Positions 37,211 to 51,333 of a DNA stretch of 64,000 nucleotides are shown here, piece after piece. Every line of letters begins with the position of its first letter. Position 1 is the stretch's first letter. The stretch is from Maricaulis alexandrii. Its GTDB lineage: Bacteria > Pseudomonadota > Alphaproteobacteria > Caulobacterales > Maricaulaceae. Below the pieces are notes generated by a model. It saw nothing but the letters and a program-made list of their open reading frames with translations, was not told where the DNA came from and ran no database searches. The position numbers were made by a program, and so were the translations under genes. The stretch lies in the NCBI RefSeq assembly GCF_005871165.1, contig NZ_SWKP01000006.1:200001-264000 (forward strand), given 5' to 3'.

Positions 37211-37267
37211 TGGTGCGGGCGGCCGGACTTGAACCGGCATGACCTTGCGGCCGACAGATTTTAAGTC
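37211..37267 (-). pseudogene. 3' half of a split tRNA-Leu(UAA) gene (attR)
   Basis: Minus-strand order: GACTTAAAATC (anticodon loop), TGTCGGCCGCAAGGTCATG (stem and long variable arm), GCCGG-TTCAAGT-CCGGC (T-arm), CGCCCGC and A-CCA. The acceptor strand CGCCCGC pairs with GCGGGCG at 51327-51333, and TCTGT pairs with GCAGA there, so the 5' half of this gene is 14 kb away. It has no 5' half or promoter of its own. Confidence 0.85.
37257..37267 (-). repeat. attR core, 11-bp direct repeat
   Basis: GACTTAAAATC on the minus strand, identical to 51293-51303. It contains the UAA anticodon loop (CTTAAAA) of tRNA-Leu, so crossover took place in the anticodon loop. Confidence 0.85.
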
Positions 37268-37563
37268 GTATACATCAAGACATAAACCGTTGTTTTTAGG
37301 TGATTATTTTAGATATACTTTAGTATTGTGTACGAAAATGTGTTCAAATTGACAGCTTTGGCGACCTCACCGAGTTGTGAGTGTGTGCACACCCGTCAGA
37401 CCGGAATTATCCGCTCCGAACGGTAACTCTTTGATAACCAGACAATCGATCGAAAAAGTCTGTCGATGGGTACGAAGTGCGTATCCGCCTAGATAGCAAA
37501 AGCTGGAAGGCCGGCGCACGCCATTTTCGGGACCGAGCAGATAGATGCACATATGTGCACAGC
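37268..37563. other. AT-rich right end of the island without a supported gene
   Basis: 296 bases beyond the attR core. Short frames here have no ribosome site or family. The sequence directly inside the core would form one arm of attP. Confidence 0.5.
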
Positions 37564-38475
37564 CTATTTCCAACGCATACCTTGATCTGACGCGAGGAGC
37601 CTCGCGTCATCGTCGTCGGCCTCCTCATCGAAACCGCCGCGTGGTTCATCGCCAAAATGGAGCAGCGACAGGGCGAAATCGAAACGGTCAGCGAACAACA
37701 CCAGTTCTTCGCACCCCTCCTTGGGAAACCAGACACCTGGCGCGTGAGCCATACTAGTCGTTTGATCGATCACAACGGCACGGTCGGCTGCCGGTGAACT
37801 TTCCGGTAATGGCACCGGCGGCACGCCTCGCGTTTTAATGTAGAGCCTAGATCGTAGTGCCGGCCGACTTGGTTTTGCCCAAAGCACGAAGCCATCAGTC
37901 GACGCAACGAGCAACGACCTTTTCGACGTGTACTCAAGCCATCTCAGGATGGCTGCCGTCAACGACACGTCGTATCGCGACGCACATGCACCGATGTCGT
38001 CAAAGGTTGGCGCTACATCTGCTGGAAGCTGACCGCGAAAATCATCGAGCGGCATTAGCAAATTTGCGGCGAACAAATTCGCCTCAGATTCAATTTTCGC
38101 ATACTCGCTATCCCAGCGGGTCATATCCCGCTGGCTACACTCTCGCCCGTCTGGAAATTGCTTTCGATGGACCAGGTAGTGGCCGAATTCATGCGCTAAG
38201 GTGAAGTTGACCCTGCTCGGCACTTCGATGCCATCATTGTAAAAGATCCCCCAGCCAGTCTTGCCACGATCGCGAGGCGCAGGCGCTAGCATGCCTTCGA
38301 ACCCATCAAGGCGCCCAGGCTTGATCAGCGTGATGGCATCATCGGGATATATCTGTTTGGAATATTCCTTTGCCACATCGATAACAGGGACGGGAAACCG
38401 ACCGTCCTTCAGCACTTCATTGAGTACCAGCGTTATATCAAATGCCCAGCGTGTCGGAGAACGCTCCCTAGTCAT
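37564..38475 (-). CDS. ImmA/IrrE-family metallo-endopeptidase
   Basis: 303 residues. The zinc motif HEFGHYLVH (about residues 90-98) and a second acidic ligand region (SEANLFAANLLMP) define the ImmA/IrrE (DUF955) family. In ICEBs1-type elements ImmA cleaves the cognate XRE repressor after DNA damage or quorum signals. The ATG overlaps the repressor gene stop by four bases. The C-terminal extension (about 185-303) is longer than in classic ImmA and may sense a signal; it ends in an acidic EEADDDD stretch. Confidence 0.9.
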   Translation of the reverse strand: MTRERSPTRWAFDITLVLNEVLKDGRFPVPVIDVAKEYSKQIYPDDAITLIKPGRLDGFEGMLAPAPRDRGKTGWGIFYNDGIEVPSRVNFTLAHEFGHYLVHRKQFPDGRECSQRDMTRWDSEYAKIESEANLFAANLLMPLDDFRGQLPADVAPTFDDIGACASRYDVSLTAAILRWLEYTSKRSLLVASTDGFVLWAKPSRPALRSRLYIKTRGVPPVPLPESSPAADRAVVIDQTTSMAHAPGVWFPKEGCEELVLFADRFDFALSLLHFGDEPRGGFDEEADDDDARLLASDQGMRWK

Positions 38476-38786
38476 TCATCATCGTCCCAGACTTGGACCA
38501 TGCGCCGCAACATCTCTTTCTTTTCCTTATCGAGCTTCTGGAAATTGCGATAGAAATTCGCATCGGTCGCATCCTCTTCCGCCTGCTCGCCAATCAGATA
38601 AGTGATGGTAACGCCGAGCTTGTCAGCAATCTTCGAGAGCTTGTCCGCGGACGGCCGCGGCGGTGCCTTGTTCTCCAGCTCCCATATATAACTTTTGCTC
38701 GATCCGGTCAGCTCAGCAAGCTGATCTAAGGTTAGGCCGCGCTTTTTTCGCAACTCTTTAATTCGAGCACCCAGGTCCCCTGCCAT
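38472..38786 (-). CDS. XRE-family repressor (ImmR-like)
   Basis: 104 residues: a cro/C1 HTH at about residues 8-62 (IKELRKKRGLTLDQLAELTG, SSKSYIWELENK), then a charged linker and helical tail. ATG 38786 has AAGGAG nine bases upstream. It is coupled to the ImmA protease gene and divergent from the cargo genes. The two identical operators at 38801 and 38855 are its likely sites, giving autorepression and control of the DUF2188/ubiquitin-like operon. Confidence 0.9.
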   Translation of the reverse strand: MAGDLGARIKELRKKRGLTLDQLAELTGSSKSYIWELENKAPPRPSADKLSKIADKLGVTITYLIGEQAEEDATDANFYRNFQKLDKEKKEMLRRMVQVWDDDE

Positions 38787-38800
38787 AGCGCTATCTCCTT

Positions 38801-38816
38801 GTTCGTTTTTCCGAAC
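38801..38816. promoter_or_regulatory. Operator 1 for the XRE repressor
   Basis: GTTCG-N6-CGAAC palindrome located 15 bases upstream of the repressor start. An identical half-site pair with the same spacer length occurs at 38855-38870. Confidence 0.65.
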
Positions 38817-38825
38817 ATTATCACC

Positions 38826-38854
38826 TTGACTTCCGAATATCAATGAATTATGTT
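38826..38854 (+). promoter_or_regulatory. Promoter of the DUF2188/ubiquitin-like operon
   Basis: TTGACT (38826-38831), 17 bases, TATGTT (38849-38854). The second operator begins one base after the -10 box, so bound repressor would block initiation. Confidence 0.55.
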
Positions 38855-38870
38855 GTTCGGTATAGCGAAC
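38855..38870. promoter_or_regulatory. Operator 2 for the XRE repressor
   Basis: GTTCG-N6-CGAAC palindrome directly downstream of the plus-strand -10 box, 54 bases from the identical operator 1. Confidence 0.65.
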
Positions 38871-38913
38871 TTTTTGTGCGCATAAAATGAACCAATAACT
38901 ACGGAGATAGATA

Positions 38914-39147
38914 ATGAGTAAAGGGCCCAAGTCCCACCACATCGTTCCAAACCCGAACGGGGGATGGGACGTCAAAGGAGGTGGCGCGCAACGCGCAAGT
39001 AGCCACCATGACACGAAACAAGAAGCGGTTAGCCGTGGACGCGAGATCAGTCGCAACCAGGGTAGTGAGCTTCGCATCCACAACAAGGATGGACGGATTG
39101 CCCAGAGCGATAGCCACGGCAACGATCCGTATCCGCCTAAAGGTTAG
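38914..39147 (+). CDS. DUF2188-domain small protein
   Basis: 77 residues. HHIVPNPNGGWDVKGGGAQR, HDTKQEAVSRGREISRNQ and ELRIHNKDGRIAQSDSHGND form the complete DUF2188 fold, a small basic domain of unknown function common in accessory loci. ATG 38914. It is the first gene after the repressed promoter, 18 bases upstream of the ubiquitin-like gene. Confidence 0.88.
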   Translation: MSKGPKSHHIVPNPNGGWDVKGGGAQRASSHHDTKQEAVSRGREISRNQGSELRIHNKDGRIAQSDSHGNDPYPPKG

Positions 39148-39165
39148 AGCAGAAGGAACACCAGA

Positions 39166-39426
39166 ATGAAAAACGAAAAGAAACCGAACAAGGAACTCTC
39201 GATCGTCGTCAACGGTCGCGAGAAGACAGTGAGCGGGAAAACAATCTCATCTGATGAGCTTGTTGAGCTCGCATTCGACAATCCGCCGACCGGCGAATTC
39301 ATTTGTTTCACCATCACCTATCGTAAGGGGCACGGCAACAAGCCGGACGGCAATCTGGCGGAAGGAGAAATGGTGAAGGTCAAAAAAGGTATGATCTTCA
39401 ATGTCACAGCAACTGATAAGTCGTAG
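39166..39426 (+). CDS. Multiubiquitin-domain (ubiquitin-like) protein
   Basis: 86 residues with one beta-grasp multiubiquitin domain (PF14452): LSIVVNGREKTVSGKTISSD, ELVELAFDNPPTGEF and EGEMVKVKKGMIFNVT. It has only one copy, where many relatives have several. The C-terminus (FNVTATDKS) lacks the Gly-Gly of eukaryotic ubiquitin, so it either needs processing or is not conjugated by a terminal Gly. Its 3' end overlaps the E1 gene by 26 bases. Confidence 0.85.
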   Translation: MKNEKKPNKELSIVVNGREKTVSGKTISSDELVELAFDNPPTGEFICFTITYRKGHGNKPDGNLAEGEMVKVKKGMIFNVTATDKS

Positions 39427-40588
39427 CGCAGATCTACGAAAACTCTTTGATGATGGGTACGAAGTATCCATCGTGTCGGGCCATCTTGTCGTCAGCAATG
39501 TGCCCTATGTCGCCGGTGACAAAACCATAAGGCGCGGCACGCTTGTTTCCGTTCTCGATCTCGCGGGCGATCAAACGGCGCAACCCAGCACTCATGTAAT
39601 GAAATTCGCGGGTGAGCACCCGTGCGACAAAGACGGCTGTGCTTTAAAAAACATGGTCCACAGCACAACTCGTGAAAACCTTGGGGACGGCCTCGTCGTT
39701 GAACGAACCTTCTCATGCAAGCCCACCGGCACTGGTCGCTACGCAGATTACTACGAGAAAATGACGACTTATGCGGCGATGATTTCCGGACCAGCGGAAG
39801 CCATCGATCCGACAGTCACCGCGCGCACTTTTGCGGTAATAGAACCGAGCGATGAAGACTCGCCATTCAATTACATCGACACCGCTTCAAGCCGCGCTGG
39901 AGTTGCTGGGATTGTAGAGAAACTGAAGCTTTCGAAAATCGCTATTGTTGGCCTAGGCGGTACGGGAGCGTACATCCTTGATCTTGTTGCCAAGACGCCC
40001 GTCCGCGAAATTCATTTGATTGATGGTGACGAGTTCATCCAGCACAACGCCTTTAGGGCGCCGGGCGCTATTACCGTCGAACAGCTGCGAAAACGGCTCA
40101 AGAAGGTGGAACACCTGGCGGACACCTATGGCTCGATGCGGAAAGGTATCGTTCCTCACCCGGAGTATTTGTCGGTCGAGAATTTGGCGCTCCTTGATGG
40201 CATGGACTTTGTGTTCGTTGCGATCGACAAAGGCGAATTAAAGGGCGCAATCGCCGAAAAGCTCGAAGCGGATGGAATCCCCTTCATCGACGTCGGAATG
40301 GGCATCAGTATTGTGGACGACGCTCTTTTTGGCGTCGTTCGCACGACCACCAGCTCGCCCAATCAGCGGTCTCATTTCACGACCTGTGTAAACACCGGCG
40401 CAACCGACGTTGATGATGCGTATCGGCAAAACATTCAGATTGCTGATCTGAATGCGTTGAATGCTTCGCTGGCGGTTATTCGGTGGAAGAAACTTTTCGG
40501 ATTTTACGGGGATCTGGAGCGGGAGCACCAATCCAATTTCACAATCGACGGCAACGTCATAACGAACAGCCATTTCCATGAAGAATAA
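39401..40588 (+). CDS. DUF6791/ThiF-family E1-like activating enzyme
   Basis: 395 residues. Residues 1-150 match the DUF6791 N-terminal domain found on such enzymes (HVMKFAGEHPCDKDG, DYYEKMTTYAAMIS). The ThiF domain follows: GLGGTGAYILDLVAKTPVRE (nucleotide loop), IDGDEFIQHNAFRAPGA (acidic and Arg residues for ATP) and FTTCVNTGATD (candidate catalytic Cys, about residue 325). It should adenylate the upstream ubiquitin-like protein. It overlaps both neighbouring genes. Confidence 0.88.
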   Translation: MSQQLISRSADLRKLFDDGYEVSIVSGHLVVSNVPYVAGDKTIRRGTLVSVLDLAGDQTAQPSTHVMKFAGEHPCDKDGCALKNMVHSTTRENLGDGLVVERTFSCKPTGTGRYADYYEKMTTYAAMISGPAEAIDPTVTARTFAVIEPSDEDSPFNYIDTASSRAGVAGIVEKLKLSKIAIVGLGGTGAYILDLVAKTPVREIHLIDGDEFIQHNAFRAPGAITVEQLRKRLKKVEHLADTYGSMRKGIVPHPEYLSVENLALLDGMDFVFVAIDKGELKGAIAEKLEADGIPFIDVGMGISIVDDALFGVVRTTTSSPNQRSHFTTCVNTGATDVDDAYRQNIQIADLNALNASLAVIRWKKLFGFYGDLEREHQSNFTIDGNVITNSHFHEE

Positions 40589-40970
40589 GCAAATCAAACA
40601 CGAGTTCGTTGATGCGATCCCAGAGGCGATCGAACCTGGGACATTGTATGTTTCAGTCGAATTTGCCACCGCAGTTCATCTTTGTGAGTGCGGTTGCGGC
40701 CTTGAAGTCGTCACACCGCTTAGCCGGACAGACTGGAAGCTGGTCTACGATGGTGAAACAGTTTCGCTTCACCCGTCTATTGGCAATTGGAGCTTCCCAT
40801 GTCGTTCGCACTACTGGATCCGCGATGGACAGGTGCAGTGGGCTGGCGACATGCACAATCAGCAAATAACTCAGATTCGACAGACCGACAGGAAAAAGAA
40901 AACGGAAGGAATCGAGTCCACGAGCTGGCTCCAGCGCACTTGGGCATTCGTCCGCGGATTATTCCACTAA
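40578..40970 (+). CDS. DUF6527-family zinc-binding-like protein
   Basis: 130 residues. HLCECGCGLEVVTPLS and NWSFPCRSHYWIRDG give a CxCxC...CxxH set suited to one metal site. DUF6527 members are repeatedly found beside multiubiquitin and ThiF genes, as here, so it likely acts as an E3-like or substrate-binding component. A C-terminal amphipathic segment (WLQRTWAFVRGLFH) could touch membranes. It overlaps the E1 stop by 11 bases. Confidence 0.82.
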   Translation: MKNKQIKHEFVDAIPEAIEPGTLYVSVEFATAVHLCECGCGLEVVTPLSRTDWKLVYDGETVSLHPSIGNWSFPCRSHYWIRDGQVQWAGDMHNQQITQIRQTDRKKKTEGIESTSWLQRTWAFVRGLFH

Positions 40971-41033
40971 CTTCCGTCACCATTCCCTTGGTGAGACACA
41001 CCGGCATTCCCTCGGAGCCGACGCCTTCCCAGC

Positions 41034-41093
41034 AACACCGAGCGCAGCGGAGGGCATACCCCCTTGCGGGGTTGCCGGAGCGAGCACGGTGTT
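41034..41093. terminator. Long imperfect inverted repeat between convergent operons
   Basis: AACACCG (41034-41040) pairs with CGGTGTT (41087-41093) around a G/C-rich inner stem (CCCCC-TTGC-GGGG near 41059-41071). It lies between the DUF6527 and AbiEii stops and likely acts as a shared terminator. It resembles an integron attC site in outline but lacks a matching left core. Confidence 0.45.
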
Positions 41094-42012
41094 AGGCTTG
41101 CTCATCTTGCTCCATGCCAAGTTTCTCCGCGAGCGCTTGATATTGCGCAGCGTGCTTTTGAGGGTTTGCTTCTTTGAGTTTCTCAAGGTTCTGCAACTTG
41201 AACTGAACCGCCGGGAAACGTTGAAAGTCGTAGATTGACCAGTCGGGCTGACCGCTCTTCAGACTGAGAAGGAACGCCTTGTCCGATCCCTTCAACGCGT
41301 TTTGGACAACGCTGATGAGTTCATCGCGGGTTGCTTCAAAGTCGTCGTAGGAGAACTCTTCTACGGTCATCCCATCAAAATGGTTGGCCATAGCATCGCG
41401 CTGATCGATCAAGTTTGGAAACAGGACTTCGTGGAAGGGACGATTTGAGCTTGCGAGCATCAGAACGAAGCCCTCTCTAATATCGTCCGAGAACCCTTCG
41501 TTATCGAGCAAATAGCGAACATCAAACAGGTCGCGCGGATGTTGACGGTCTAGTGCCGCACAGATTTTGCCACCGTAGAGCTGCCCTAGCGAAACCATCG
41601 GAACTGCGCAGAACGCGTCAAACATTTCTTGGGCAGCGTCGCACAGCGGCATTGTGACCGGAGGCGATAGAACGCCGCGCCCGATTTGATTGACCTCAAG
41701 TTTGATCTTCGCACCGTCGTGCGAGATCAACAGTTTTAAAATGTCATCACGCGGTTCGATGCGAACGCCTGCAAGTATGCCCTCGACACGACCTTTGATC
41801 CGCCCGAGTGCTGCGCGGATCTCCGCGAACGAGGTTTGGCGATCTTGGATCGGCACATAGGTCAGATCGATATCAACCGACAACCGTGGCATGTCTCGCA
41901 CGAATAAATTGATGGCCGTGCCGCCATGCAAGGCAAAGCACTCCTCCTTCGCCACCTCCGGAAGGACGCTGAGCAACAATCGAACCTGATCTTGGTAGAC
42001 TTTACTCTGCAT
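41092..42012 (-). CDS. AbiEii-type nucleotidyltransferase toxin
   Basis: 306 residues. The DNA polymerase-beta-like nucleotidyltransferase core is LHGGTAINLFVRDMPRLSVD with IDLTY (GG...SVDIDL, about residues 29-51), typical of AbiEii/AbiGii. These toxins modify tRNA or other RNA and arrest growth, giving phage resistance by abortive infection. The ATG lies 11 bases inside the end of the antitoxin gene. Length and motifs are intact. Confidence 0.9.
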   Translation of the reverse strand: MQSKVYQDQVRLLLSVLPEVAKEECFALHGGTAINLFVRDMPRLSVDIDLTYVPIQDRQTSFAEIRAALGRIKGRVEGILAGVRIEPRDDILKLLISHDGAKIKLEVNQIGRGVLSPPVTMPLCDAAQEMFDAFCAVPMVSLGQLYGGKICAALDRQHPRDLFDVRYLLDNEGFSDDIREGFVLMLASSNRPFHEVLFPNLIDQRDAMANHFDGMTVEEFSYDDFEATRDELISVVQNALKGSDKAFLLSLKSGQPDWSIYDFQRFPAVQFKLQNLEKLKEANPQKHAAQYQALAEKLGMEQDEQA

Positions 42013-42775
42013 CGATCGCCAGCGCTCTTGGTACGGTTATTAGGTAGGTTGCGTCGTAGACACCATCATTGACGATGCGGCGTTTCCCACTGCCCAGGTC
42101 AACGCGATCTAGCTTGAGATAGTTCAGCCAATCATGGCCTGCCTTGTTCGCCATGAAGAGAAAAAGGCGCTTCACCTTGATCGACCCACACGCCTCAAGG
42201 AGCTTTTGAACCTGCGCCGGCCGGAGATTGTTTAGCCCCTCCATGACCTCGTAACATTCAACCAGGTCCTGGTCTTTAGGCGCAAGATATAGGCACTCCA
42301 TGAGAGCCCTCGCCGCCCCCGAGACCTTGAGCGTAAATGCCTTGTGTTCCAGTTCTACCAATCCGAGTTCTGGCGGTAGAAACTTGGAGGCATGAAAATC
42401 GATTTTTGCTCCCCAATCATGGTTCTTGAACCAGGTTGGTAGAGCCTCACCATCTGCGCCGAAGAGAACGGCCCGTTTGGTCGAAAACTCGAGGTAGTGC
42501 GCATTGCGGGTGAGGTTTAAGGCCGTCCGACCACCTGGATGTATTGACGAACCGAGTTGAGTTTGGAGCGCATAGAGCGCCCCGAGGTAATCAACCTCAT
42601 CTCCCGCTCTCTTGAGAACTCTATTGCCTAGAGCCTCCAACCAACCATTCTCTCTGTATCGCTGCTGTAGCGAGGGACCATATCCCCGCTTTTTCAACCA
42701 AGCTGAGAGCATCACGACACCAGCCGGCACGTCACTCAAAAGTTGGTTTATTTTTGTCGCGCTTCTTACACTCAT
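42002..42775 (-). CDS. AbiEi-type antitoxin and repressor
   Basis: 257 residues. The N-terminal winged helix is LKKRGYGPSLQQRYRENGWL; the C-terminal antitoxin domain follows. AbiEi partners neutralise AbiEii indirectly (type IV) and repress their own operon through inverted repeats. Matching inverted repeats are at 42774-42846, directly upstream. It is translationally coupled to the toxin gene (11-base overlap). Confidence 0.87.
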   Translation of the reverse strand: MSVRSATKINQLLSDVPAGVVMLSAWLKKRGYGPSLQQRYRENGWLEALGNRVLKRAGDEVDYLGALYALQTQLGSSIHPGGRTALNLTRNAHYLEFSTKRAVLFGADGEALPTWFKNHDWGAKIDFHASKFLPPELGLVELEHKAFTLKVSGAARALMECLYLAPKDQDLVECYEVMEGLNNLRPAQVQKLLEACGSIKVKRLFLFMANKAGHDWLNYLKLDRVDLGSGKRRIVNDGVYDATYLITVPRALAIDAE

Positions 42776-42846
42776 GGTGTAAGTTTACGGCATTTATTAA
42801 ACCACCACAACCCAATAGTTTAATTTTCCCCTCAAACTCACACCAT
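42774..42846. promoter_or_regulatory. Inverted repeats for AbiEi autorepression
   Basis: ATGGTGTAAGTTTA at 42774-42787 and its near-inverse CTCAAACTCACACCAT at 42831-42846 flank the antitoxin start. Paired inverted repeats in this position are the known AbiEi operator layout. Confidence 0.6.
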
Positions 42847-42909
42847 AAGTGTATGTTTGAGATAAATTTCAAACCGAACGGTCAATCCACAACCACTCGA
42901 CATAAACAA

Positions 42910-43140
42910 TCAGCCGGTATGGCAAGCTGGGCAACAATGGGCACAGCCATCGATGTCTGAGGCATTGGCTGGAAACTTCCGCTTAGCCTCGGCTTTCGCA
43001 GGGCCGCACGTCTCGTAATAACCGATGTGAATTCTGTTTTCAGGATTTGGCAAATAGCTGCAGGTGGAGACGTTGTGAACCTCGTAATTTCCACCAGCCG
43101 CCGCGCTCTGCTTGTTCTTATTCAAAATGTATTCCGCCAC
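42910..43140 (-). CDS. Small Cys-rich hypothetical protein
   Basis: 76 residues. The sequence has STCSYLPNPENRIHIGYYET, CGPAKAEAKRKFP and GCAHCCPACHT, i.e. seven Cys and several His. Similar small proteins with CSYLPNPENRIHxG and a CCPxCHT end are common in accessory regions. GTG 43140 has GGAGC five bases upstream. A perfect 8-bp inverted repeat (GCGTGACG-TG-CGTCACGC, 43192-43209) lies upstream. The function is unknown; metal binding is plausible. Confidence 0.65.
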   Translation of the reverse strand: MAEYILNKNKQSAAAGGNYEVHNVSTCSYLPNPENRIHIGYYETCGPAKAEAKRKFPANASDIDGCAHCCPACHTG

Positions 43141-43211
43141 AATCAGCTCCCTCGAAAAACCGCGCAGCCATACCATGACATTTCTGAGGTGAGCGTGACG
43201 TGCGTCACGCC

Positions 43212-44129
43212 TTAGCGCTCGCGATCATCATCGTCGCGATCACGCCCACGCCGACGGCTTAGCCGGCGATCTATTTCTTCTTGTTCTTCTACATGAAGAA
43301 GAAGGTCCCCACGACGAATGGGGCCACCGGACTTCTTCCGCTCCGCCTCATAGCTCTTCCAGTCACCGAAGCGCGCTTCGAGCATAGCCAACCGATGCCT
43401 CTTGCCCCCGACCTGGGAGAGTTTGGCAAAGCCTTTCCCGTCGCTGAAGATCAATCCTTGGCCCTTGCCATGGATACCAAGCCCACGCTCGGAAACCCGA
43501 TCTTCAAGATCATTCCATGAGGACGCTTCATCGAAGTGCGGCCGAATGAACTGGCGCAACTCACCGATCTTGTCCTTGCCCCAGGCGACAAGCGCATTGA
43601 CGTCAAATCCGCCTTCAGCCCGTTTCTTCAAACGCTCCCCAAAGCTCAACACACGGGAGAGCCTTCCAGGAACCTCCTGTAGGCCTAACTCCCTCTCTTG
43701 GGTTTTGAGAGAGCGTTCAAGGCGGGTCTTGTAGCGCCACTTTGGCCAGGCCTTGCCGGTTTCCGGATGCACCCGATTAACCATCACATGGAGATGCGGG
43801 TGCTCCGTATCGTTGTGACAGACGATGACCGACTGATGCTCCGATAAACCGAGATCTGAGAGCGTTTGATCTGCGACGCCCGCCATGGCGTCGGGCTCGA
43901 GCTGCTCGTCTACTGGCCAACTAACAGAAAAATGAAAGACGGGATCTTGGACCCGTCGCGACATCCGCGCCGTGGCACGCATCATCGCAGGATATGTGTC
44001 CGGATCGGTTGTCGGCAGATTGCGCGCCTCTGCCCACTCGACCCTCTCAGGTCGATCGCCACGCTGCCCCGTGGCGAGGTATCGGGCGAGGCCGCCAAAG
44101 CCGGTTCCGGTCTGAGCTTCTCCGATCAC
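43212..44129 (-). CDS. MobA/VirD2-type relaxase
   Basis: 305 residues. The relaxase motif III is HPHLHVMVNRVHPETGKAWP (HxH...N, about residues 88-107), with RTxx-like ARYLATGQRGD near the N-terminus holding a candidate Tyr. It starts at GTG 44129, nine bases after the mobC stop; the frame is open much further upstream but only within mobC. It is short: relaxases usually carry a long C-terminal helicase or primase region, absent here, so the protein is a minimal nicking enzyme. Confidence 0.85.
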   Translation of the reverse strand: MIGEAQTGTGFGGLARYLATGQRGDRPERVEWAEARNLPTTDPDTYPAMMRATARMSRRVQDPVFHFSVSWPVDEQLEPDAMAGVADQTLSDLGLSEHQSVIVCHNDTEHPHLHVMVNRVHPETGKAWPKWRYKTRLERSLKTQERELGLQEVPGRLSRVLSFGERLKKRAEGGFDVNALVAWGKDKIGELRQFIRPHFDEASSWNDLEDRVSERGLGIHGKGQGLIFSDGKGFAKLSQVGGKRHRLAMLEARFGDWKSYEAERKKSGGPIRRGDLLLHVEEQEEIDRRLSRRRGRDRDDDDRER

Positions 44130-44137
44130 AAGAAAGC

Positions 44138-44467
44138 TCAGCTGAGCCGGCGCACAGCGGACAGGACGGCGTCCAGGGTTGCGTGTACCGCGGGAGCGGA
44201 TACCACGAAGCCGGCGTTGGCCTGCTTTGCAAGCTGATTGAGATTGTTCCCAATCGAGGTCAGTTGGCGAATGGCATCCGCTGTGACGCGTGCAGGTTTC
44301 GCTTGGGGACGAGCCCCCAACGCACATGCACGCACGAAGGCCGCACGGGTCTGATCGCAAGTCTCCGCCGCCTCGTTTATGGCCGCCAACTCAGTTGGCG
44401 TGACATAGACGTCGATCCTCTCGGATCGAACCTCGGCGCGTGACTTTCGATGACCCTTTGGCGGCAT
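44138..44467 (-). CDS. mobC: MobC-family relaxosome accessory protein
   Basis: 109 residues. The N-terminal ribbon-helix-helix (VYVTPTELAAINEAAETCDQ) and the MobC signature (TSIGNNLNQLAKQANAG) match plasmid mobilisation MobC proteins, which open oriT DNA for the relaxase. It is followed by the relaxase nine bases later. The ATG is at 44467. Confidence 0.9.
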   Translation of the reverse strand: MPPKGHRKSRAEVRSERIDVYVTPTELAAINEAAETCDQTRAAFVRACALGARPQAKPARVTADAIRQLTSIGNNLNQLAKQANAGFVVSAPAVHATLDAVLSAVRRLS

Positions 44468-44943: not shown

Positions 44944-44974
44944 TTGCATCTGTAGTAACTACAGATGTTATTGT
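44944..44974 (+). promoter_or_regulatory. MerR-type operator/promoter 1
   Basis: TTGCAT (44944-44949), 19 bases, TATTGT (44969-44974). The spacer is the palindrome CTGTAGTAACTACAG (44950-44964). A 19-base spacer is the MerR hallmark. The same palindrome with one base changed lies at 46771-46785. Confidence 0.7.
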
Positions 44975-44980
44975 GGCGTT

Positions 44981-45346
44981 ATGTCAGTAGCGGGTACAGA
45001 TCAAGGTTGGCTCTCAAGAGCGCTTTCGAGCGGCGGCGTGCTCGGCGGCTTCGCCGCTTTCGTAGGCGCGTCGTGTTGCGTCATCCCGATAATGCTTGTG
45101 CACTTCGGGGTCGCGAGTGGATTGGTCGCGAAGCTTGGCTGGTTCGCGCGCTGGCAACCTTACTTCTTCTGGACATCTGCGGGATTGCTCGCCGTTGCGG
45201 CGTCCTATGCAATATGGCGCGGCCAAGCATCGAGATCTTTTTGGATCTGGTGGGTGATCGGAACAACGTTCCTCATCGCCGCATTCATCCTGCCGCAGTA
45301 CGAGTTCAAACTTCAAAGTTGGGTTTTGGATTGGACGCGGAGGTAA
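44981..45346 (+). CDS. MerT-like mercuric ion membrane transporter
   Basis: 121 residues and three helices. The first helix carries the vicinal Cys pair in GFAAFVGASCCVIPIMLVHF, the Hg2+ relay of MerT. ATG 44981 starts about seven bases after the -10 box, so the message may be leaderless. It lies at the head of operon 1 with a membrane protein and a MerR regulator. Confidence 0.82.
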   Translation: MSVAGTDQGWLSRALSSGGVLGGFAAFVGASCCVIPIMLVHFGVASGLVAKLGWFARWQPYFFWTSAGLLAVAASYAIWRGQASRSFWIWWVIGTTFLIAAFILPQYEFKLQSWVLDWTRR

Positions 45347-45347
45347 C

Positions 45348-45890
45348 ATGGCAGACGCTAAACCGACGTTCCGTTTCGACGACGCTGGCACAATTCCACC
45401 GCCAGGGTGGATCGGTCGTGCTGCTCGCGCGCTCTTTGGCTACGGCTCACTTTATTGGGTCTATCAGATTGTGAGTTTTGGCGACGTTGGCGCGCTTACC
45501 AATCTCTCCGTGATTGGATTTACGCTCTTCGCATTGCAGCTCATTCCCTACACGGTGAACATTGGCTTCGGCATTAAGCTATCGTTCTGGCCACGCCTCC
45601 TTGCAGCGCTGGGCATCGCAGCGGCCGCCTATTTGGGTTGGCAATCAACCGGTGAAGTCGCGTCATCATCGCTCTGGAACGCGATCGCGATATTGAACAT
45701 CTATGTCTACGGGCATCTTGGGATATCGTTCGTGCTCGCGGCGATCTTCGCGACGGCCGGCTGCGAGATGCGGGCTCTCCCGATTTTGATTGGTCGGCTG
45801 GCCGGGCGCCGCGCACGTGATCACTATTGCCCGGGCCCAATCCGGGCCATCGACAACTGGGAACGCAAGCGGTTTGGTCAAAAACCCTAG
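45348..45890 (+). CDS. Hypothetical membrane protein of mer operon 1
   Basis: 180 residues and four or five helices from about residue 24 (ARALFGYGSLYWVYQIV, LTNLSVIGFTLFALQLIPYT). The C-terminal segments GCEMRALPILIGRLAGR and DHYCPGPIRAIDNWE hold two Cys. It starts one base after the merT-like gene and lies before merR, so it is probably cotranscribed. It is not a standard mer family (not MerC, MerF or MerE in length or motif). Possibly a thiol-bearing helper of uptake. Confidence 0.65.
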   Translation: MADAKPTFRFDDAGTIPPPGWIGRAARALFGYGSLYWVYQIVSFGDVGALTNLSVIGFTLFALQLIPYTVNIGFGIKLSFWPRLLAALGIAAAAYLGWQSTGEVASSSLWNAIAILNIYVYGHLGISFVLAAIFATAGCEMRALPILIGRLAGRRARDHYCPGPIRAIDNWERKRFGQKP

Positions 45891-45921
45891 ACTGAGCGCA
45901 GCAACAAACCGAGACGACTTG

Positions 45922-46365
45922 ATGAACATCACCCGCGGTAAACTCGCCAAACTCACGGGCTGCCATCTAGAGACTGTGCGGTACTATGAGAGCATCGGCC
46001 TCATGCCCGAACCTGCTCGTGCGGCAAATGGGTTTCGAACCTATTCGGATGACGATGTTCGACGGCTCAAGTTTTTGATGCGCGCACGCGATCTCGGATT
46101 TGCTGTCGCCGAGGTCCAGAACCTCCTCAGCTTGGTCGACAACAACGCCTATAGCTGTGGTCAGGTGCGAGATATAACTCTCGACCACTTGGCATCGGTG
46201 CGTAAGAAAATTGCGGACCTAAAACGTCTAGAAAGTGTTCTTGGTGACATGGCCTCACAGTGCGACGGCGGTGTCGTGCCGGAATGCCCGATAGTTGATG
46301 CTCTCTACGACTTCGCGCCGGAGGACTTATCAGCATCGACTTGGAGTAACGCGTCCAGAACGTGA
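45922..46365 (+). CDS. merR: MerR-family regulator (mercury type), copy 1
   Basis: 147 residues. The HTH is MNITRGKLAKLTGCHLETVR and YYESIGLMPEPARAANGFRT. Three Cys match the Hg site pattern: Cys in AYSCGQ and the pair in QCDGGVVPECPIVDALY, eight residues apart. It ends operon 1 and overlaps the opposing second MerR gene by 61 bases. ATG 45922. The likely operator is the CTGTAGT palindrome upstream of the operon. Confidence 0.85.
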   Translation: MNITRGKLAKLTGCHLETVRYYESIGLMPEPARAANGFRTYSDDDVRRLKFLMRARDLGFAVAEVQNLLSLVDNNAYSCGQVRDITLDHLASVRKKIADLKRLESVLGDMASQCDGGVVPECPIVDALYDFAPEDLSASTWSNASRT

Positions 46366-46757
46366 CAGCCGGCGTTCGGTTCAATTGAGCACTTTCTGGC
46401 CGCCGCGCGCAGCGTGGACGCGACTGATTTCAGTTCCGCTATACGCCCTTCGACCACCTCAATATGGGCGTTGATCTCGCTAGCAACCGCCTGGCACTGG
46501 CCAGAATGGTCGCGCTCCAAACGCAGCAGCGCACGACATTGGTTCAGCGAGAACCCTAGATCTCGGAATTGTCTGATGAAGGTCAGAACCGCGATGTGGC
46601 GGCGGTCGTAAAGTCGGTATCCGTTTTCTGCGCGGCGAGGCGCAGGCAGCACGCCCTGAGTTTCGTAGTAGCGAATGGTTTCTGCGTGGCAGCCGGTGAG
46701 ACGTGCAAGCTCGCCTCTCGTAAGTGCCTTCACGCGAGCGTGTGTTTTCGTGTTCAT
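46305..46757 (-). CDS. merR: MerR-family regulator (mercury type), copy 2
   Basis: 150 residues. The HTH is TRGELARLTGCHAETIRYYE and RAENGYRLYDRRHIAV. Hg-type Cys residues are SGQCQA and the pair in KCSIEPNAGCHVLDALL, again eight apart. It is divergent from merT copy 2 across the operator at 46771. Its 3' end overlaps copy 1 tail-to-tail. The divergence between copies suggests separate acquisition rather than recent duplication. Confidence 0.87.
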   Translation of the reverse strand: MNTKTHARVKALTRGELARLTGCHAETIRYYETQGVLPAPRRAENGYRLYDRRHIAVLTFIRQFRDLGFSLNQCRALLRLERDHSGQCQAVASEINAHIEVVEGRIAELKSVASTLRAAARKCSIEPNAGCHVLDALLQVDADKSSGAKS

Positions 46758-46764
46758 TTTCTCC

Positions 46765-46795
46765 TTGAGTCTGTAGTCACTACAGGGATTAGCCT
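46765..46795 (+). promoter_or_regulatory. MerR-type operator/promoter 2
   Basis: TTGAGT (46765-46770), 19 bases, TAGCCT (46790-46795), with the palindrome CTGTAGTCACTACAG (46771-46785) as spacer. It serves the merT-merP-merA set on the plus strand and lies next to the divergent merR. Confidence 0.7.
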
Positions 46796-46827
46796 AGTTG
46801 AAAATCGAGGAATGAGCAAGAAAACGA

Positions 46828-47214
46828 ATGACCGAAATCGAACAATCGAGCGACCAAACACCAGCCCCCCGTCAAAAACGAGGCTGGCTCGCAGCGGGAG
46901 GCATTATCGGCGCCATTGTGGCGTCATCCTGCTGCATCTTGCCTTTGGTGTTGGTACTCGCCGGCGTCAGTGGCGCGTGGATCGGGTCGCTCACCGCGCT
47001 CGATCCGTACAAGCCCTACTTCATAGTGGTGACGCTGGCCTTTATCGGCGCGGGATTTTGGCACGTCTATTTCAAGTCTGAGCCACCATGCGAAGACGGC
47101 TCATATTGCGCAAAACCCCAATCCAACATCATCACCCAAATCGCCCTCTGGGTCGGCTTGGCGATCGTTCTGCTCGCCGCAACGATCGACTGGTGGGCCC
47201 CATTTTTTTACTAG
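46828..47214 (+). CDS. merT: Mercuric ion transporter MerT
   Basis: 128 residues and three helices. The first carries the paired Cys motif IVASSCCILPLVLVLAGVSG, and KSEPPCEDGSYCAKP in the cytoplasmic loop holds the second Cys pair. MerT moves Hg2+ received from MerP into the cytosol for reduction. ATG 46828 lies 33 bases after the -10 box. It leads the merT-merP-merA cluster. Confidence 0.93.
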   Translation: MTEIEQSSDQTPAPRQKRGWLAAGGIIGAIVASSCCILPLVLVLAGVSGAWIGSLTALDPYKPYFIVVTLAFIGAGFWHVYFKSEPPCEDGSYCAKPQSNIITQIALWVGLAIVLLAATIDWWAPFFY

Positions 47215-47224
47215 GAGACACACA

Positions 47225-47602
47225 ATGAAACGAACATCCACCGTAATACTATCCGTAGCCCTGCTCGGTATCGCAGGAGCCGGTTTGTCGGCATTCAATT
47301 ATGCGCCGTCAGAGACATCAGCAAAGACGAATATAGTCGTTGCTCAAACAGAAACCGCTACATTCGACATCGAGAACATGACGTGTGCGACCTGCCCGAT
47401 CACAGTTCGGACTGCGATGAGCCGTGTTGAAGGCGTGGATTCGGTTGAAGTGGACTTCGAAACCAAGACCGCAATTGTTCGATTTGATCCGAGTGTGACA
47501 ACTGCAGCGCTTGTTGGTCAGGCATCCACCGATGCTGGTTATCCCGCACATGCCTCCAACGCCGAAGATGCCGACCATTCCGAAGCAGAACATCAACACT
47601 AA
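47225..47602 (+). CDS. merP: Periplasmic mercury-binding protein MerP
   Basis: 125 residues: a Sec signal (about 1-21), a longer linker than usual, and the heavy-metal-associated domain with MTCATCPITVRTAMSRVEGV (Cys pair, about residues 56-59). A His/acidic tail (AEDADHSEAEHQH) may add metal binding. It captures Hg2+ in the periplasm for MerT. It lies 10 bases after merT. Confidence 0.93.
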   Translation: MKRTSTVILSVALLGIAGAGLSAFNYAPSETSAKTNIVVAQTETATFDIENMTCATCPITVRTAMSRVEGVDSVEVDFETKTAIVRFDPSVTTAALVGQASTDAGYPAHASNAEDADHSEAEHQH

Positions 47603-47641
47603 AAGCGCCGCCAGATCACTGGTCAGACGGAGAAGTCACGA

Positions 47642-48307
47642 ATGAAAGATTGCTGCTCAGATGGGAACAATGGCGAATACGACATCGCCGTTGTTGGCGC
47701 CGGGTCCGCTGGATTCTCGGCGGCGATCACCGCCGCCGAAGCTGGCGCGCGCGTGGCGATAATCGGTCACGGAACGATTGGCGGCACATGCGTAAACGTT
47801 GGCTGCGTGCCATCGAAGGCCCTGATCCGCGCTATGGAAGCGGCGCACTCAGGCGCTGCTGCCCGCAGGTTTGCGGGTGTGTCCGTGGCATCCAGGGTCG
47901 ATGACTGGCCAGCGGTCCAGGCGCAAAAAGACGCACTTGTTTCGGGTCTTCGTGACAAAAAATACGAAGCCTTGCTGCCCGAATACGAAAATATCGACTA
48001 CATCGAAACGAAAGCTCCTGCCCGCCTAGTAGAGGGCGGTGTTGCTTTCGACGGGCGGGCAATACGCGCTGCGAAGATCATCATTGCTACTGGCTCTTCC
48101 AGCAGCATCCCGCCGATCCCTGGCATCGAAAACGTTCAAACACTAGATTCGACCAGTGCGCTCGAACTAGATCGGCTGCCAGAGAGCATGGTGGTTATCG
48201 GCGGTGGCGTCATCGGGTGTGAACTCGGACAAATGTTTGCCCGCGCCGGTGTGCACGTAACGATCTGCTGTCGCACGCGCCTGAAAGAACATGCCCCGGC
48301 TCAATAG
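47642..48307 (+). pseudogene. merA: Truncated mercuric reductase MerA (N-terminal part)
   Basis: 221 residues against about 460 or more in complete MerA. Present are the FAD loop VVGAGSAGFSAAITAAEAGA, the redox Cys pair GGTCVNVGCVPSKALIRAM and the second Rossmann loop VVIGGGVIGCELGQMFARAG. The alignment-like region ends after about residue 212; ten unrelated residues (TRLKEHAPAQ) lead to the stop. The dimerisation domain and C-terminal Cys pair are gone, so it cannot reduce Hg2+. The break probably came from a deletion next to the minus-strand gene at 48301. Confidence 0.88.
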
Positions 48308-48606
48308 CACTGCTTGCGTGGCGATCTCGCCAGGTCTAGCCATTCCGACCAGTGAATGTCCTGGATGTCGGCCACACCCCATTTGCGGAGGACCAGCTCG
48401 GCAAGAAACGCCCGAACACTGGTTGTGAAATCGGCGACGAGCTCCTTGCTCCGCCGTTCACTCTCCGCATCTTTCAGTTTGACGGTCAGCTGCCAATCCG
48501 GTTTCGCCTTGGAAGGCTCCAGCCAGACATCGACGCTCCAGTGGCCTCGATGGTTGATATAGATCCGTCTTGTGGCCCCTTTGGCCGGCCATGCCCGTAG
48601 TTTCAT
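48301..48606 (-). CDS. Hypothetical 101-residue protein
   Basis: It starts MKLRAWPAKGATRRIYINHR and contains WSVDVWLEPSKAKPDWQLTV and AFLAELVLRKWGVADIQDIH. No family recognised. Small proteins like this occur near ArdA in mobile elements, and it lies 93 bases downstream of ardA. Its end overlaps the truncated merA by seven bases. Confidence 0.6.
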   Translation of the reverse strand: MKLRAWPAKGATRRIYINHRGHWSVDVWLEPSKAKPDWQLTVKLKDAESERRSKELVADFTTSVRAFLAELVLRKWGVADIQDIHWSEWLDLARSPRKQCY

Positions 48607-48699
48607 GTTGCAGTCTCCACCCTGTTGTCACGGCCTTATGGCCGGGGCCAAAACCGGAAGATGGAGAAAACAAACGTCCGACATTTGCGGCGGTGGGGG

Positions 48700-49218
48700 C
48701 TATTGCCCCCAGAAGATGTGAACCTCCTCGAACCCTTCGGTGACGGTTTCGATTTCTCCACCGAGCTGAAGTGACCGGGCCATGGCATCGTAGTCGATGT
48801 AATACGCGAGCTGTTCCGGAATCTCGTACCACTGCTCAACATATTCTTCCGCAAATGCAGCCCCTGAGGTGTATGTGCCGCTGTAGCGCTCCAGCATCGT
48901 GCGCGCGTCTTCAAGGTCTCCTGAGACGTGTTCGAGCACCAACGCGCCGAGGCCCTGGTGTTCCTCGACAAAGAGCGCCAGTTCATGGGCTCGTGCCAAT
49001 CCGGCGTATTCGCCGATGTCGGCACCGCCGAAACCTTCATAGTCGTGGATGGCATATTCTTCGGCATCCGAGATTGGGGACGCTTCGAGCATCGCGTTTA
49101 CTTGGTCCTGGATACGCTCCAGATCGTCGGTGGCATCGATCCAGGAGCCGTGCAGATAGCCGTTATTGTAGGCCGCCAAGCAGGCAACGTAGATGCGGGG
49201 TTCAAAGCCGGTAGTCAT
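48700..49218 (-). CDS. ardA: ArdA antirestriction protein
   Basis: 172 residues. The start (PRIYVACLAAYNNGYLHGSW), the acidic body (DAEEYAIHDYEGFGGADIGE) and the C-terminal FAEEYVEQWYEIPEQLAYYI are typical of ArdA. This DNA mimic inhibits type I restriction enzymes and protects the element on entry into a new host. Length matches full-length ArdA. The ATG is at 49218. Confidence 0.92.
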   Translation of the reverse strand: MTTGFEPRIYVACLAAYNNGYLHGSWIDATDDLERIQDQVNAMLEASPISDAEEYAIHDYEGFGGADIGEYAGLARAHELALFVEEHQGLGALVLEHVSGDLEDARTMLERYSGTYTSGAAFAEEYVEQWYEIPEQLAYYIDYDAMARSLQLGGEIETVTEGFEEVHIFWGQ

Positions 49219-49515
49219 TGATCTGTCTCCTGTTCGAGACCGTGTTCATTCACGGCCTGTTGGAGAGCGATCGGCTGCGTTCGGGAGAGCGGCGCACCTC
49301 GTCAGAGGCGTCCCGTAGGAGAGACGCTGGCGGGGATGTTTCTTGGATGGGCGGGGAAATGTGCGCAGCTCATGGCGAAGAAACCTCCCCACAAGCGTTG
49401 CGCCAAGCGAACCCGGCGCAGCAGGTTTCCAAAACAAGGCCCGTGAAAACGGTCAGACCGGAGCGGATCAGCGCCGGTGTTCCCCGGAACGAACCTGGAG
49501 AGCGGGCAACAAGGG
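49219..49515. other. Non-coding stretch between ardA and tRNA-Leu
   Basis: 297 bases with no supported gene or clear signal. The ardA promoter and the 3' flank of the tRNA should lie here. Confidence 0.4.
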
Positions 49516-49866
49516 TGGTGCGGACGGAGGGACTCGAACCCTCATGACCTTGCGGTCGACGGATTTTCTTACCTGCTACGGCTTTCGCCGCCACTCGCTT
49601 TCCAGGATGCAGCATCCCGCGAGTGTTTGGGGTCTGGACTATCCCTTCGTCGTACTTCGAGCATGCCTCGAAGCCTTAGACGCCGCCCGTCTAGTCTCTA
49701 CACCTTCCCCGAGCTTTTTAGGGCCTAGGGCTTGGCTCGGGATTAGCTTGGGGCGAGTGCTCGCCCTTTAGCCTTCCCCGAATTTGAGCGGTTCTACGTC
49801 CAGGGTTTCCCCTGGCGCACTCAAATTGCTTAAGTCCGTTGCGTCTACCAATTCCGCCACGTCCGC
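49516..49866 (-). tRNA. tRNA-Leu(UAA) interrupted by a group I intron
   Basis: Exon 1 (49866-49832, 35 nt) starts GCGGACG-TG-GCGGAATTGGTAGACGC and ends ACGGACTT. Exon 2 (49567-49516, 52 nt) starts AAAATCCGT and has the long variable arm, T-arm GAGGG-TTCGAGT-CCCTC, CGTCCGC, A and encoded CCA. Spliced, this gives an 87-nt class II tRNA with stem ACGGA/TCCGT and loop CTTAAAA, anticodon UAA. All stems pair. The intron sits between anticodon bases 34 and 35. Confidence 0.93.
49568..49831 (-). ncRNA. Group I intron (tRNA-Leu type)
   Basis: 264 nt, ending in G next to exon 2. Visible core elements on the minus strand: a CCAGGG-GAAA-CCCTGG hairpin, AATCCCGAGCCAAG (Q), AAGGTGTAGAGACTAGACGG (R) and GACGAAGGGATAGTCC (S), close to cyanobacterial tRNA-Leu introns (IC3 class). 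There is no open reading frame, so no homing endonuclease. Confidence 0.9.
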
Positions 49867-49930
49867 ACGCGCGGCTGGAATCCAACCGCGCTGACTGATT
49901 ACCAGATGTGGTTCCGGGAACAAGCCAACG

Positions 49931-51130
49931 TCAGCGTTGGCGCTTCTTCTTTTCCTCGACGGGTTTGTGCTTTTTCACACGGCGCACATTCACGGCCGCC
50001 GCATTGATGCTGGTTTTGATGTGGGCGGCGTAGTGTTTCTCGATCATCTCAACGCTGGTTCGGCAGTTTTTCGCGACCTGATAGATGTCGGCCCCTTCCA
50101 TGAGACGGAAGCAGATGTAGCTGTGGCGCAGACTGTAGGCCGTCCGCCGATTGCCATCTCGGTCGAACTTGAGCCCCTCCTCGTCGAGGATCGTGTTCAA
50201 AAGCGTCAGGTGCGACTGCGGAAACACCAGATCCGTCGGTTCAGGGTCGTTGCGCTTCACCAATCGCTGAAACGGCCTGACAGCCCCCGGCATACTCTTA
50301 CAGAACCCAACCCCTCGCTTGCCGCGAACCTCGATCTCCAGGATCGTTTCATCGGTATCGTAGTCCTCGACGATCGCCACATCCCGATATTGGAGTTTGT
50401 AGGCTTCATCTGGGCGAAGACCGGTGTTGGCCATGAAGAGGACAAAGTCATGCAGCTGGGCGGTTTCCCACTCGTAGCGCTTGCCCTTGTTCTCACCCGC
50501 TCGTCTTCGGGTAGCCTTGTAGAGCTGCTCGTACTCCTCTTGGGAGAACCACGCGCGGTGCCGCACTTTCCGCGCAGTTTCATACGGCATCGACAAGTCC
50601 GGCAAATGCGTCAGCCAACCATGCCGAATGGCCGTCTTTAGAACCTGCCTCAGGCAGACAATCTCCTGGTGGATGGTGCTCGGAGCCGGCGGGCCATAAT
50701 TTTTATTTTCACGCCCAAACCGCGCCACCGAGTTTGTCTGACGATATATGCGGTATTCCTGAACCTTTCCGCCCGTGATTTCGGACAGTCCCATGTCACC
50801 GAAATAAGGAACGAGGTAGTTTTTCAGCCGACGCTTATGTCCACCGACATAGACCGGGCTTCGTGTGCCGCCGGTGATGATCTCGAACTCTTGTTCGAAC
50901 TGCCTGGCGGCGTGCTTGAAGGTTTTTTCGTTTTTGAGCTCGCCTACCCGCGCCTTTCCACAAAGCGTCAGGTACCAGTCTTCGGCGAACTCTTTAGCGA
51001 GCGACAGGCTCTCTTCCTTGGTGGTTTTCCGATAGTTCTTCCCATCGAACCGGGCCGCACACTGCCAATGCGGTGTGCCGGGCCTCTGATAGAGCCGAAC
51101 TTTGCCACCTAAAATCTTGTGAACGGCCAT
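49931..51130 (-). CDS. Tyrosine integrase of the island
   Basis: 399 residues: N-terminal arm- and core-binding part, then the catalytic domain with Arg in MANTGLRPDEAYKLQYRDV, the SLRHSYICFRL box and the nucleophile Tyr in IEKHYAAHIKTS (about residue 375). The protein is encoded next to attL and directed away from it. It is the enzyme for recombination at the tRNA-Leu anticodon core. A basic tail (RRVKKHKPVEEKKKRQR) follows. No excisionase gene was recognised nearby. Confidence 0.93.
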   Translation of the reverse strand: MAVHKILGGKVRLYQRPGTPHWQCAARFDGKNYRKTTKEESLSLAKEFAEDWYLTLCGKARVGELKNEKTFKHAARQFEQEFEIITGGTRSPVYVGGHKRRLKNYLVPYFGDMGLSEITGGKVQEYRIYRQTNSVARFGRENKNYGPPAPSTIHQEIVCLRQVLKTAIRHGWLTHLPDLSMPYETARKVRHRAWFSQEEYEQLYKATRRRAGENKGKRYEWETAQLHDFVLFMANTGLRPDEAYKLQYRDVAIVEDYDTDETILEIEVRGKRGVGFCKSMPGAVRPFQRLVKRNDPEPTDLVFPQSHLTLLNTILDEEGLKFDRDGNRRTAYSLRHSYICFRLMEGADIYQVAKNCRTSVEMIEKHYAAHIKTSINAAAVNVRRVKKHKPVEEKKKRQR

Positions 51131-51256
51131 TATCGCCGCTCCTGCGGGGCTCTCCCGTCAATGAGTGTGTTTTTGTGCATCATTTGTGCACGGTATCACA
51201 GGCAGATATCTGGAACCAGAGAAATATTGAAAACCTTTGTAATACAAAGATTTGAA

Positions 51257-51333
51257 TGGTGCCCATGGCCAGACTCGAACTGGCACTGGAAGGATTTTAA
51301 GTCTGCTGCGTCTACCAATTCCGCCACGCCCGC
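51257..51333 (-). tRNA. Chimeric tRNA-Leu-like gene at attL (5' half native, 3' half element-derived)
   Basis: Positions 51333-51293 are the native 5' half: GCGGGCG-TG-GCGGAATTGGTAGACGC, then GCAGACTTAAAATC. The rest (CTTCCAGTGCCAGTTCGAGT... to CCA) comes from the element. The T-arm is sound, but the acceptor pairs badly (GCGGGCG with CATGGGC), the anticodon stem has two mismatches, and the long Leu variable arm is missing. It is probably not a working tRNA, though automated tools may call it one. Confidence 0.7.
51293..51303 (-). repeat. attL core, 11-bp direct repeat
   Basis: GACTTAAAATC on the minus strand, identical to the attR core at 37257-37267; it spans the tRNA anticodon loop. Confidence 0.85.

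Follow-up and report, generated by a model that had tools for sequence, protein, structure and literature searches.

Here we describe a 14.0-kilobase (kb) integrative element of Maricaulis alexandrii that interrupts a transfer RNA (tRNA) gene, tRNA-Leu(UAA), within its anticodon loop and that carries a second, whole tRNA-Leu(UAA) gene, itself interrupted by a group I intron. The element occupies positions 37257–51303 of the window, the stretch of 64,000 nucleotides (nt) of contig NZ_SWKP01000006.1 that was analysed. tRNA genes are the standard landing sites of such elements, and the textbook rule is that an island restores the gene into which it inserts. On the basis of sequence comparisons, we consider it likely that this mobilizable integrative element splits tRNA-Leu(UAA), supplies a whole intron-bearing substitute and uses the intron to shield that substitute from its own integrase. 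Under this reading the restoration rule is broken, a core translation gene is exchanged and host decoding is tied to a mobile element; a group I intron would also gain a concrete function, that of hiding a site from the integrase of its carrier.

The element is bounded by two 11-bp repeats, gattttaagtc, which span the anticodon loop plus the adjoining two bases at both ends. One attachment (att) repeat lies on the integrase side (51293–51303) and the other at the far end (37257–37267), both on the minus strand and both identified by reading the sequence; the bases flanking them differ at either side. The 5′ half of the host gene (51293–51333, minus strand; nt 1–41, including the att core) is 100% identical to the intact gene of genomes G001 and G004, and the displaced 3′ half (37211–37256, minus strand) encodes CCA. 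Joined on the minus strand (51333–51293 followed by 37256–37211), the halves give an 87-nt tRNA-Leu(UAA) with an encoded CCA, which was folded by ARAGORN. The coordinates given in the original prediction for the two halves, the repeats and the intron-bearing tRNA are all confirmed.

The predicted 87-nt gene is present, identical, at an empty site in the same-genus genome G001 (L124), where both flanks adjoin the tRNA (upstream, 1,271 nt at 92% identity to the window; downstream, 714 nt at 91%). Of 18 same-genus genomes, 15 contain a match of 90% or more over the full length of this gene; the exceptions are G006 and G010, in which the gene is split, and G012, a 65% complete genome. Same-genus relatives other than G001 have one flank or none matching beyond the tRNA (1.5 kb per side compared). 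The window assembly is a 12-contig draft in which tRNA-Ile(GAU) and tRNA-Ala(UGC) were not found, a point that favours an assembly or binning artefact. We regard such an artefact as next to impossible, given that the element is internal to a 558,629-base contig, that the empty site in G001 is clean and that numerous independent assemblies show the same structure, among them single-contig G010 and a 3.74-Mb contig of G091.

The replacement tRNA-Leu(UAA) (49516–49866, minus strand) starts around 65 bp behind the integrase gene and consists of a 5′ exon (49832–49866), a group I intron of 264 nt (49568–49831) and a 3′ exon (49516–49567). ARAGORN places the intron between GACTT and AAAATC; its position in the tRNA is between U34 and A35, and it matches Rfam family RF00028 at 53 bits (cut-off, 50). 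Group I introns have a U at the 5′ splice site opposite a guide sequence, and a terminal G; all 17 intron-bearing tRNAs that we compared have ACTT before the intron, a GAGTGC guide inside it and G as the last intron base. The core is invariant across 13 aligned introns, in which 24 of 57 predicted pairs covary, with changes on both sides. The gene lies between both att repeats, inside the element as had been proposed. The intron belongs to a gene of its own, 1.4 kb into the element, and not to the attP-derived part of a rebuilt target.

This gene is the sole whole UAA gene found in the window genome. Rfam models gave 42 tRNA matches across the 12 contigs, of which 41 were typed by ARAGORN and the forty-second is a chimera discussed below; the leucine isoacceptors typed are CAA, UAG, CAG and GAG only. 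There is a single RF00028 match in the genome, and a search for the uninterrupted UAA anticodon-arm pattern returned the split 5′ half only. An intact intron-less tRNA-Leu(UAA) elsewhere, on whose absence the original prediction depended, was thus not found in the 12-contig genome by Rfam, ARAGORN or the arm pattern, and a second copy overlooked in the draft assembly is possible but unlikely. The codon UUA is rare in this host, with 0 occurrences among the 1761 codons of four nearby host genes, which limits any claim that the gene is essential.

The element also carries, beside the att core, a relic tRNA 3′ end (51257–51292, minus strand) that was missing from the original prediction. Among host tRNA loci its best match is the 3′ end of tRNA-Leu(CAA), at 90% over the last 31 nt, with a shortened variable arm. 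It does not restore the tRNA: 51257–51292 misfits the host 5′ half, including its acceptor stem, and restoration of the target by an attP fragment therefore fails here. Similar segments are present in L043, L044, G006 and G091. A T-arm and CCA are kept in the relic ends of five alphaproteobacterial elements (the window, L043, L044, L146 and L293), and their T-stems remain paired through compensatory changes (GCCAG/CTGGC, GTCAG/CTGAC, GCGGG/CCCGC and ACCAG/CTGGT). We considered the segment as the end of a class I tRNA, which would have explained a failure at long-armed leucine tRNAs, and dropped this idea, the best match being tRNA-Leu(CAA).

The conserved T-arm, with its paired changes, and the weak 34.1-bit Rfam match that spans the host 5′ half and the relic 3′ end (51260–51333) could indicate that the split gene still functions, either as a chimeric tRNA or through halves joined in trans. 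We judge this very improbable: ARAGORN found no tRNA in 51260–51333, the acceptor strands GCGGGCG and CATGGGC pair badly and, from our reading of the sequence, the long variable arm of a leucine tRNA is absent.

The arrangement recurs among relatives of the integrase, a predicted tyrosine recombinase of 399 amino acids (49931–51130, minus strand; PF13102 at 21.2 bits, just below the cut-off of 22.3) whose gene ends 163 bp from the att repeat. It is 55–70% identical to 80 retained relatives, and several of those on plasmids are annotated as tyrosine-type or site-specific integrases. We fetched 81 loci with a full-length relative, 80 from genomes and one viral. In 46 of the 81, an intact non-leucine tRNA (Met, Phe, Lys, Arg, Trp, Asn or Gln) lies directly upstream, indicating restoration, and just one of these 46 elements has another whole tRNA within 800 nt downstream (2 loci have less than 800 nt of sequence). 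A quick tree of 83 integrases places 26 rows in one group (Shimodaira–Hasegawa-like approximate likelihood ratio test (SH-aLRT), 89; not starred), 22 of which have a tRNA-Leu 5′ half upstream of the integrase; in L045, L046 and L054 a whole tRNA-Leu follows the integrase and no half was recognised, and L048 is unassigned. Eleven further rows are without an assigned target, several of them cut by contig ends.

Fifteen cases split tRNA-Leu(UAA) (the window, G006, L041, L043, L044, L052, L064, L083, L086, L090, G078, G079, G091, G181 and G462), and 12 of these, from Alphaproteobacteria and Acidobacteria, have a whole intron-bearing tRNA-Leu(UAA). In 10 of the 12 this gene directly follows the integrase (an integrase remnant in G078); in L044 it is about 4.7 kb further on and on the opposite strand, and in L043 (Oricola) it is near the end of another contig. 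By comparison, a whole CAA replacement was found in 2 of 13 CAA-splitting elements (L042 and G021). No replacement was found in the 11 acidobacterial CAA-splitting elements, for which 1.7 to 10 kb of flank was available and only CAA genes with an unchanged arm were considered; G081 and G082 have a second whole tRNA-Leu(CAA) of another type. Fisher’s test on 12 of 15 versus 2 of 13 gives P = 0.002, a value that serves as a guide only, being uncorrected for the close kinship of many rows. After loss of the CAA tRNA, UUG can be read through wobble by tRNA-Leu(UAA), whereas UUA has no other reader; that UAA-splitting elements mostly bring a replacement and CAA-splitting elements mostly do not is what such a difference would predict, and the contrast amounts to a natural experiment. 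At the far end of the acidobacterial elements, part of the D-arm is repeated as well (around 33 nt in Edaphobacter (L189), where the element is around 33 kb).

Recurrence across the integrase family thus strongly supports, at the level of sequence, the earlier proposal that the host tRNA is killed and a substitute supplied. Mobile elements often carry tRNAs, and the gene could be ordinary cargo, similar to the codon-supply tRNAs of phages, with its pairing with a broken host gene coincidental. Intron-bearing tRNA-Leu genes do occur on plasmids with no visible split gene (L306 and L307). We nonetheless find coincidence very improbable, given that the anticodon matches the broken gene, that the place behind the integrase is the same and that a replacement accompanies 12 of the 15 elements that split UAA but 2 of the 13 that split CAA and 1 of the 46 that restore their target.

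The intron sits within the crossover core. In all 17 intron-bearing tRNAs the joined exons read GACTTAAAATC, identical to the att core of the window and split by the intron, and the 11-base core is broken by the intron in all 12 UAA-splitting elements that have a replacement. We propose that the tyrosine integrase directs insertion at the anticodon loop of tRNA-Leu(UAA) in the host. The sequence shows the target left in two pieces and unrestored, and a complete tRNA-Leu(UAA) supplied by the element; the replacement transcript would splice to a normal tRNA. As the intron breaks the 11-bp core in DNA, the integrase should be unable to recombine its own att sites with its own tRNA, which would prevent the element from cutting itself up. 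Three intron-less replacements that accompany the same integrase family differ from their own att cores, at 3 of 11 positions in L042 and at 2 each in L054 and G021. L045 and L046 differ from theirs at 1 position. All of these replacements have either an intron or a changed core, as self-protection predicts.

Some instances of the pairing of split gene and intron were predicted before being sought. A split UAA gene was seen in G078, G079 and G082, and a group I intron was afterwards found in the first two; the search in G082 found none. In a sample of 385 alphaproteobacterial genomes, 23 contain the intron core motif, and 17 of these 23 loci have a tRNA-Leu-type 5′ exon (11 are called Leu(UAA) by ARAGORN); the remainder resemble tRNA-Arg or similar. 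An integrase of this family is directly upstream in 5 of the 17 Leu-type loci, the window included, and about 1.9 kb upstream in G447. The DNA upstream of four loci with both intron and integrase (G181, G091, G462 and G196) contains a split UAA 5′ half in the first three; in G196 a mutated UAA 5′ half, read by eye, precedes a broken integrase.

We also searched 23 chosen genomes (that of the window and relatives with a split gene or the intron) for the uninterrupted UAA arm, by a method that may miss odd D-loops. Of the 24 matches, 16 are split 5′ halves and 6 are 3′ halves displaced to far ends (G069, G072, G078, G079, G082 and G221); the other two are a non-tRNA sequence and a whole gene, the replacement of G010. 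An intron-bearing tRNA-Leu(UAA) is present in 20 of the 23 (cut by a contig end in G065); of the others, G010 has the intron-less gene, and no whole tRNA-Leu(UAA) was found by this search in G006 and G082.

An alternative that we consider possible, although doubtful, is that gene replacement is real and the intron has no protective role, having pre-existed in the captured gene or being a selfish rider. Several observations weigh against our reading, and two of them bear directly on this alternative. First, 10 of the 17 intron-bearing tRNA-Leu-type loci in the class sample have no detected element, integrase or split half (8 examined with at least 5 kb per side and 2 with 1.5 kb); the intron may therefore be old and merely captured. 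Second, in G010 (same genus, single contig) an element of around 38 kb splits the same tRNA-Leu(UAA) gene (L257:19071–19158 and L144:937–2010). Its replacement, which lies 10 nt from the far att site, lacks an intron and has an unchanged core; some elements thus do without masking. The integrase of G010 is a different tyrosine integrase (PF00589) with no tblastn match to that of the window. In addition, L045 and L046, whose target is unassigned, differ from their own att core at only 1 of 11 positions. No replacement was found in 3 of the 15 UAA-splitting cases (G006, L083 and L086); G006 is a 190-contig draft with the tRNA halves at the ends of separate contigs, and the L083 and L086 bins contain an intact UAA gene. 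The genomes are mostly drafts or metagenome-assembled genomes. Finally, pairing within the 17 intron-bearing tRNAs speaks for function (288 of 289 pairs intact in the acceptor, anticodon and T stems, with two-sided, covarying changes at 7 of 17 positions), but this count is biased, since ARAGORN picks out genes by their ability to fold. What speaks for protection is that, within the integrase family, intron-less replacements are never identical to the core (2–3 changes in L042, L054 and G021; 1 in L045 and L046). The earlier suggestion of an intron that conceals the substitute from the integrase is accordingly favoured by the comparison across the family, and does not extend to G010.

Decayed elements suggest how a host might come to depend on the replacement. 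In G078 the 5′ half is split, the integrase has an internal deletion and the intron-bearing tRNA is intact; in G081 an integrase leader and a C-terminal stub remain with an intact intron-bearing tRNA, and the UAA 5′ half was not found; and in G196 the tRNA is intact beside the broken integrase and mutated 5′ half. The tRNA is thus kept while the rest decays, as dependence predicts. The two halves in the window, by comparison, are perfect, which suggests a recent or still reversible insertion. The proposed addiction-like character of the element accordingly holds in part: dependence would become fixed once a host half or the integrase decays, whereas precise excision should restore the host gene here.

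As to history, relatives of the integrase restore their targets; a shift to tRNA-Leu may have stranded in attP a tRNA-Leu(CAA)-like end of no further use, and recruitment of a whole tRNA may have made that shift viable. After decay of the integrase or the host half, the host would depend permanently on the gene of the element, an intron-less gene having been exchanged for an intron-bearing one; the tRNA persists in elements with ruined integrases, so that the host inherits an intron-bearing gene. We lean, with modest confidence, towards a broader view in which this class of elements exchanges a host tRNA gene rather than repairing it, the intron is kept as a self-immunity device and the elements are vectors that spread intron-bearing tRNA-Leu(UAA) across phyla, such that some ‘resident’ tRNA-Leu introns of Proteobacteria and Acidobacteria would be footprints of past invasions. 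This would provide a mechanism for the horizontal spread of tRNA introns among bacteria.

The insertion site of the cyanobacterial and plastid tRNA-Leu(UAA) group I intron is presumably the same (after U34). That intron interrupts the same tRNA in a resident, largely vertically inherited gene (PMC4033280, PMC4476775); here it is on an element that destroys the host gene. Islands catalogued by Islander (PMC4383910) resemble the element in that a tyrosine integrase gene adjoins att, the anticodon loop is among the listed crossover sub-sites, the ends are direct repeats and relatives have an empty site. As described, those islands restore the target from an attP end fragment, which leaves one whole gene and one fragment; in the present case the target remains broken and the element brings an intact gene that differs from it and has an intron. 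A review of archaea also gives restoration as the rule, and refers to Sugahara 2012 on the transfer of an intron by an element in archaea. The closest idea that we found comes from archaea: at a Caldiarchaeum tRNA-Thr locus (PMC3293823), a recombinase-bearing insertion likewise adjoins a tRNA fragment and an intron-containing tRNA, and the authors propose that a mobile element brought the intron, which could bar further integration. Those introns are protein-spliced, lie in attP and were acquired by recombination at the target at one locus; the present intron is of group I and sits in an additional whole gene, an arrangement seen in numerous genomes from two bacterial phyla. In IStrons (PMC4227781) a self-splicing intron makes a mobile element tolerable, as the intron here would do; there the intron is part of the transposing unit and here it is inside a cargo tRNA. 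In line with the original prediction, which knew of no such arrangement, we found no bacterial description of it in the open-access literature that was searched (subscription papers were outside the scope).

The remaining genes include those for an ArdA antirestriction protein (48700–49218, minus strand; PF07275, 143.6 bits), a MobA/VirD2-like relaxase (43212–44360, minus strand; PF03432, 105.2 bits) and a MobC/NikA-like mobilisation protein (44138–44467, minus strand; PF21983 and PF05713). From its relaxase gene the element looks mobilizable; no conjugation-apparatus families were found among 20 proteins scanned with Pfam (18 from the element, a subset of its open reading frames). AbiEii (41092–42012) and AbiEi (42002–42775) are encoded on the minus strand (41092–42775; PF08843, PF11459 and PF17194). 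A plus-strand cluster of multiubiquitin, DUF6791–ThiF and DUF6527 genes (39166–40970; PF14452, PF20590, PF00899 and PF20137) is possibly, and this is a guess, a ubiquitin-like defence system. Mercury-type genes (46305–48307) encode MerR, MerT, a heavy-metal-binding MerP-like protein and a 221-amino-acid N-terminal flavoprotein (MerA-like) fragment, and an IrrE-type peptidase and a helix-turn-helix regulator lie at the far end (37564–39122, minus strand; PF06114 and PF01381). The integrases of the window and G006 are 86% identical over 267 amino acids; their non-synonymous divergence (dN) is 0.098 and their synonymous divergence is saturated, so no ratio is given.

The integrase has no match in the phage collection, and none is present on the nine viral contigs with the intron core motif, two of which (L288 and L290) have an intron-bearing tRNA according to ARAGORN. 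Among plasmids there are 24 partial or full integrase relatives; H1 and H2, named with the plasmid relatives, have no tRNA or core nearby.

In G052, G065 and G221 (L151/L253, L201 and L296), a split UAA 5′ half is followed after around 145–200 nt by an intron-bearing tRNA-Leu(UAA), with no member of the integrase family between them. In G221 the intron-bearing gene is around 200 nt beyond the 5′ half and the displaced 3′ half is 15.2 kb away; we rejected the idea of a decayed element in this genome, as a 3′ half at that distance marks a bounded island, in the inspected parts of which no integrase was seen. In G072 and G068 (L192, L193; L202, L203) a tRNA-Leu(UAG) 5′ half is split off, with a whole tRNA-Leu(UAG) around 15.7 kb and 1.85 kb downstream, and in G062 (L250:5653–5974) a group I intron lies in a tRNA read as Thr(GGU) by ARAGORN. 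Part of the intron-bearing tRNA of the window is matched at 60–80% identity by 1274 plasmid records, mostly from Enterobacteriaceae. An intron-bearing tRNA-Leu(UAA) is present, and unannotated, on a conjugative Bradyrhizobium plasmid (L307:3001–3291), and an Escherichia coli plasmid (LC257589.1; L306:4001–4298) has a 298-nt group I intron tRNA-like gene, with an odd anticodon call from ARAGORN, beside tmrB and aac(3)-II.

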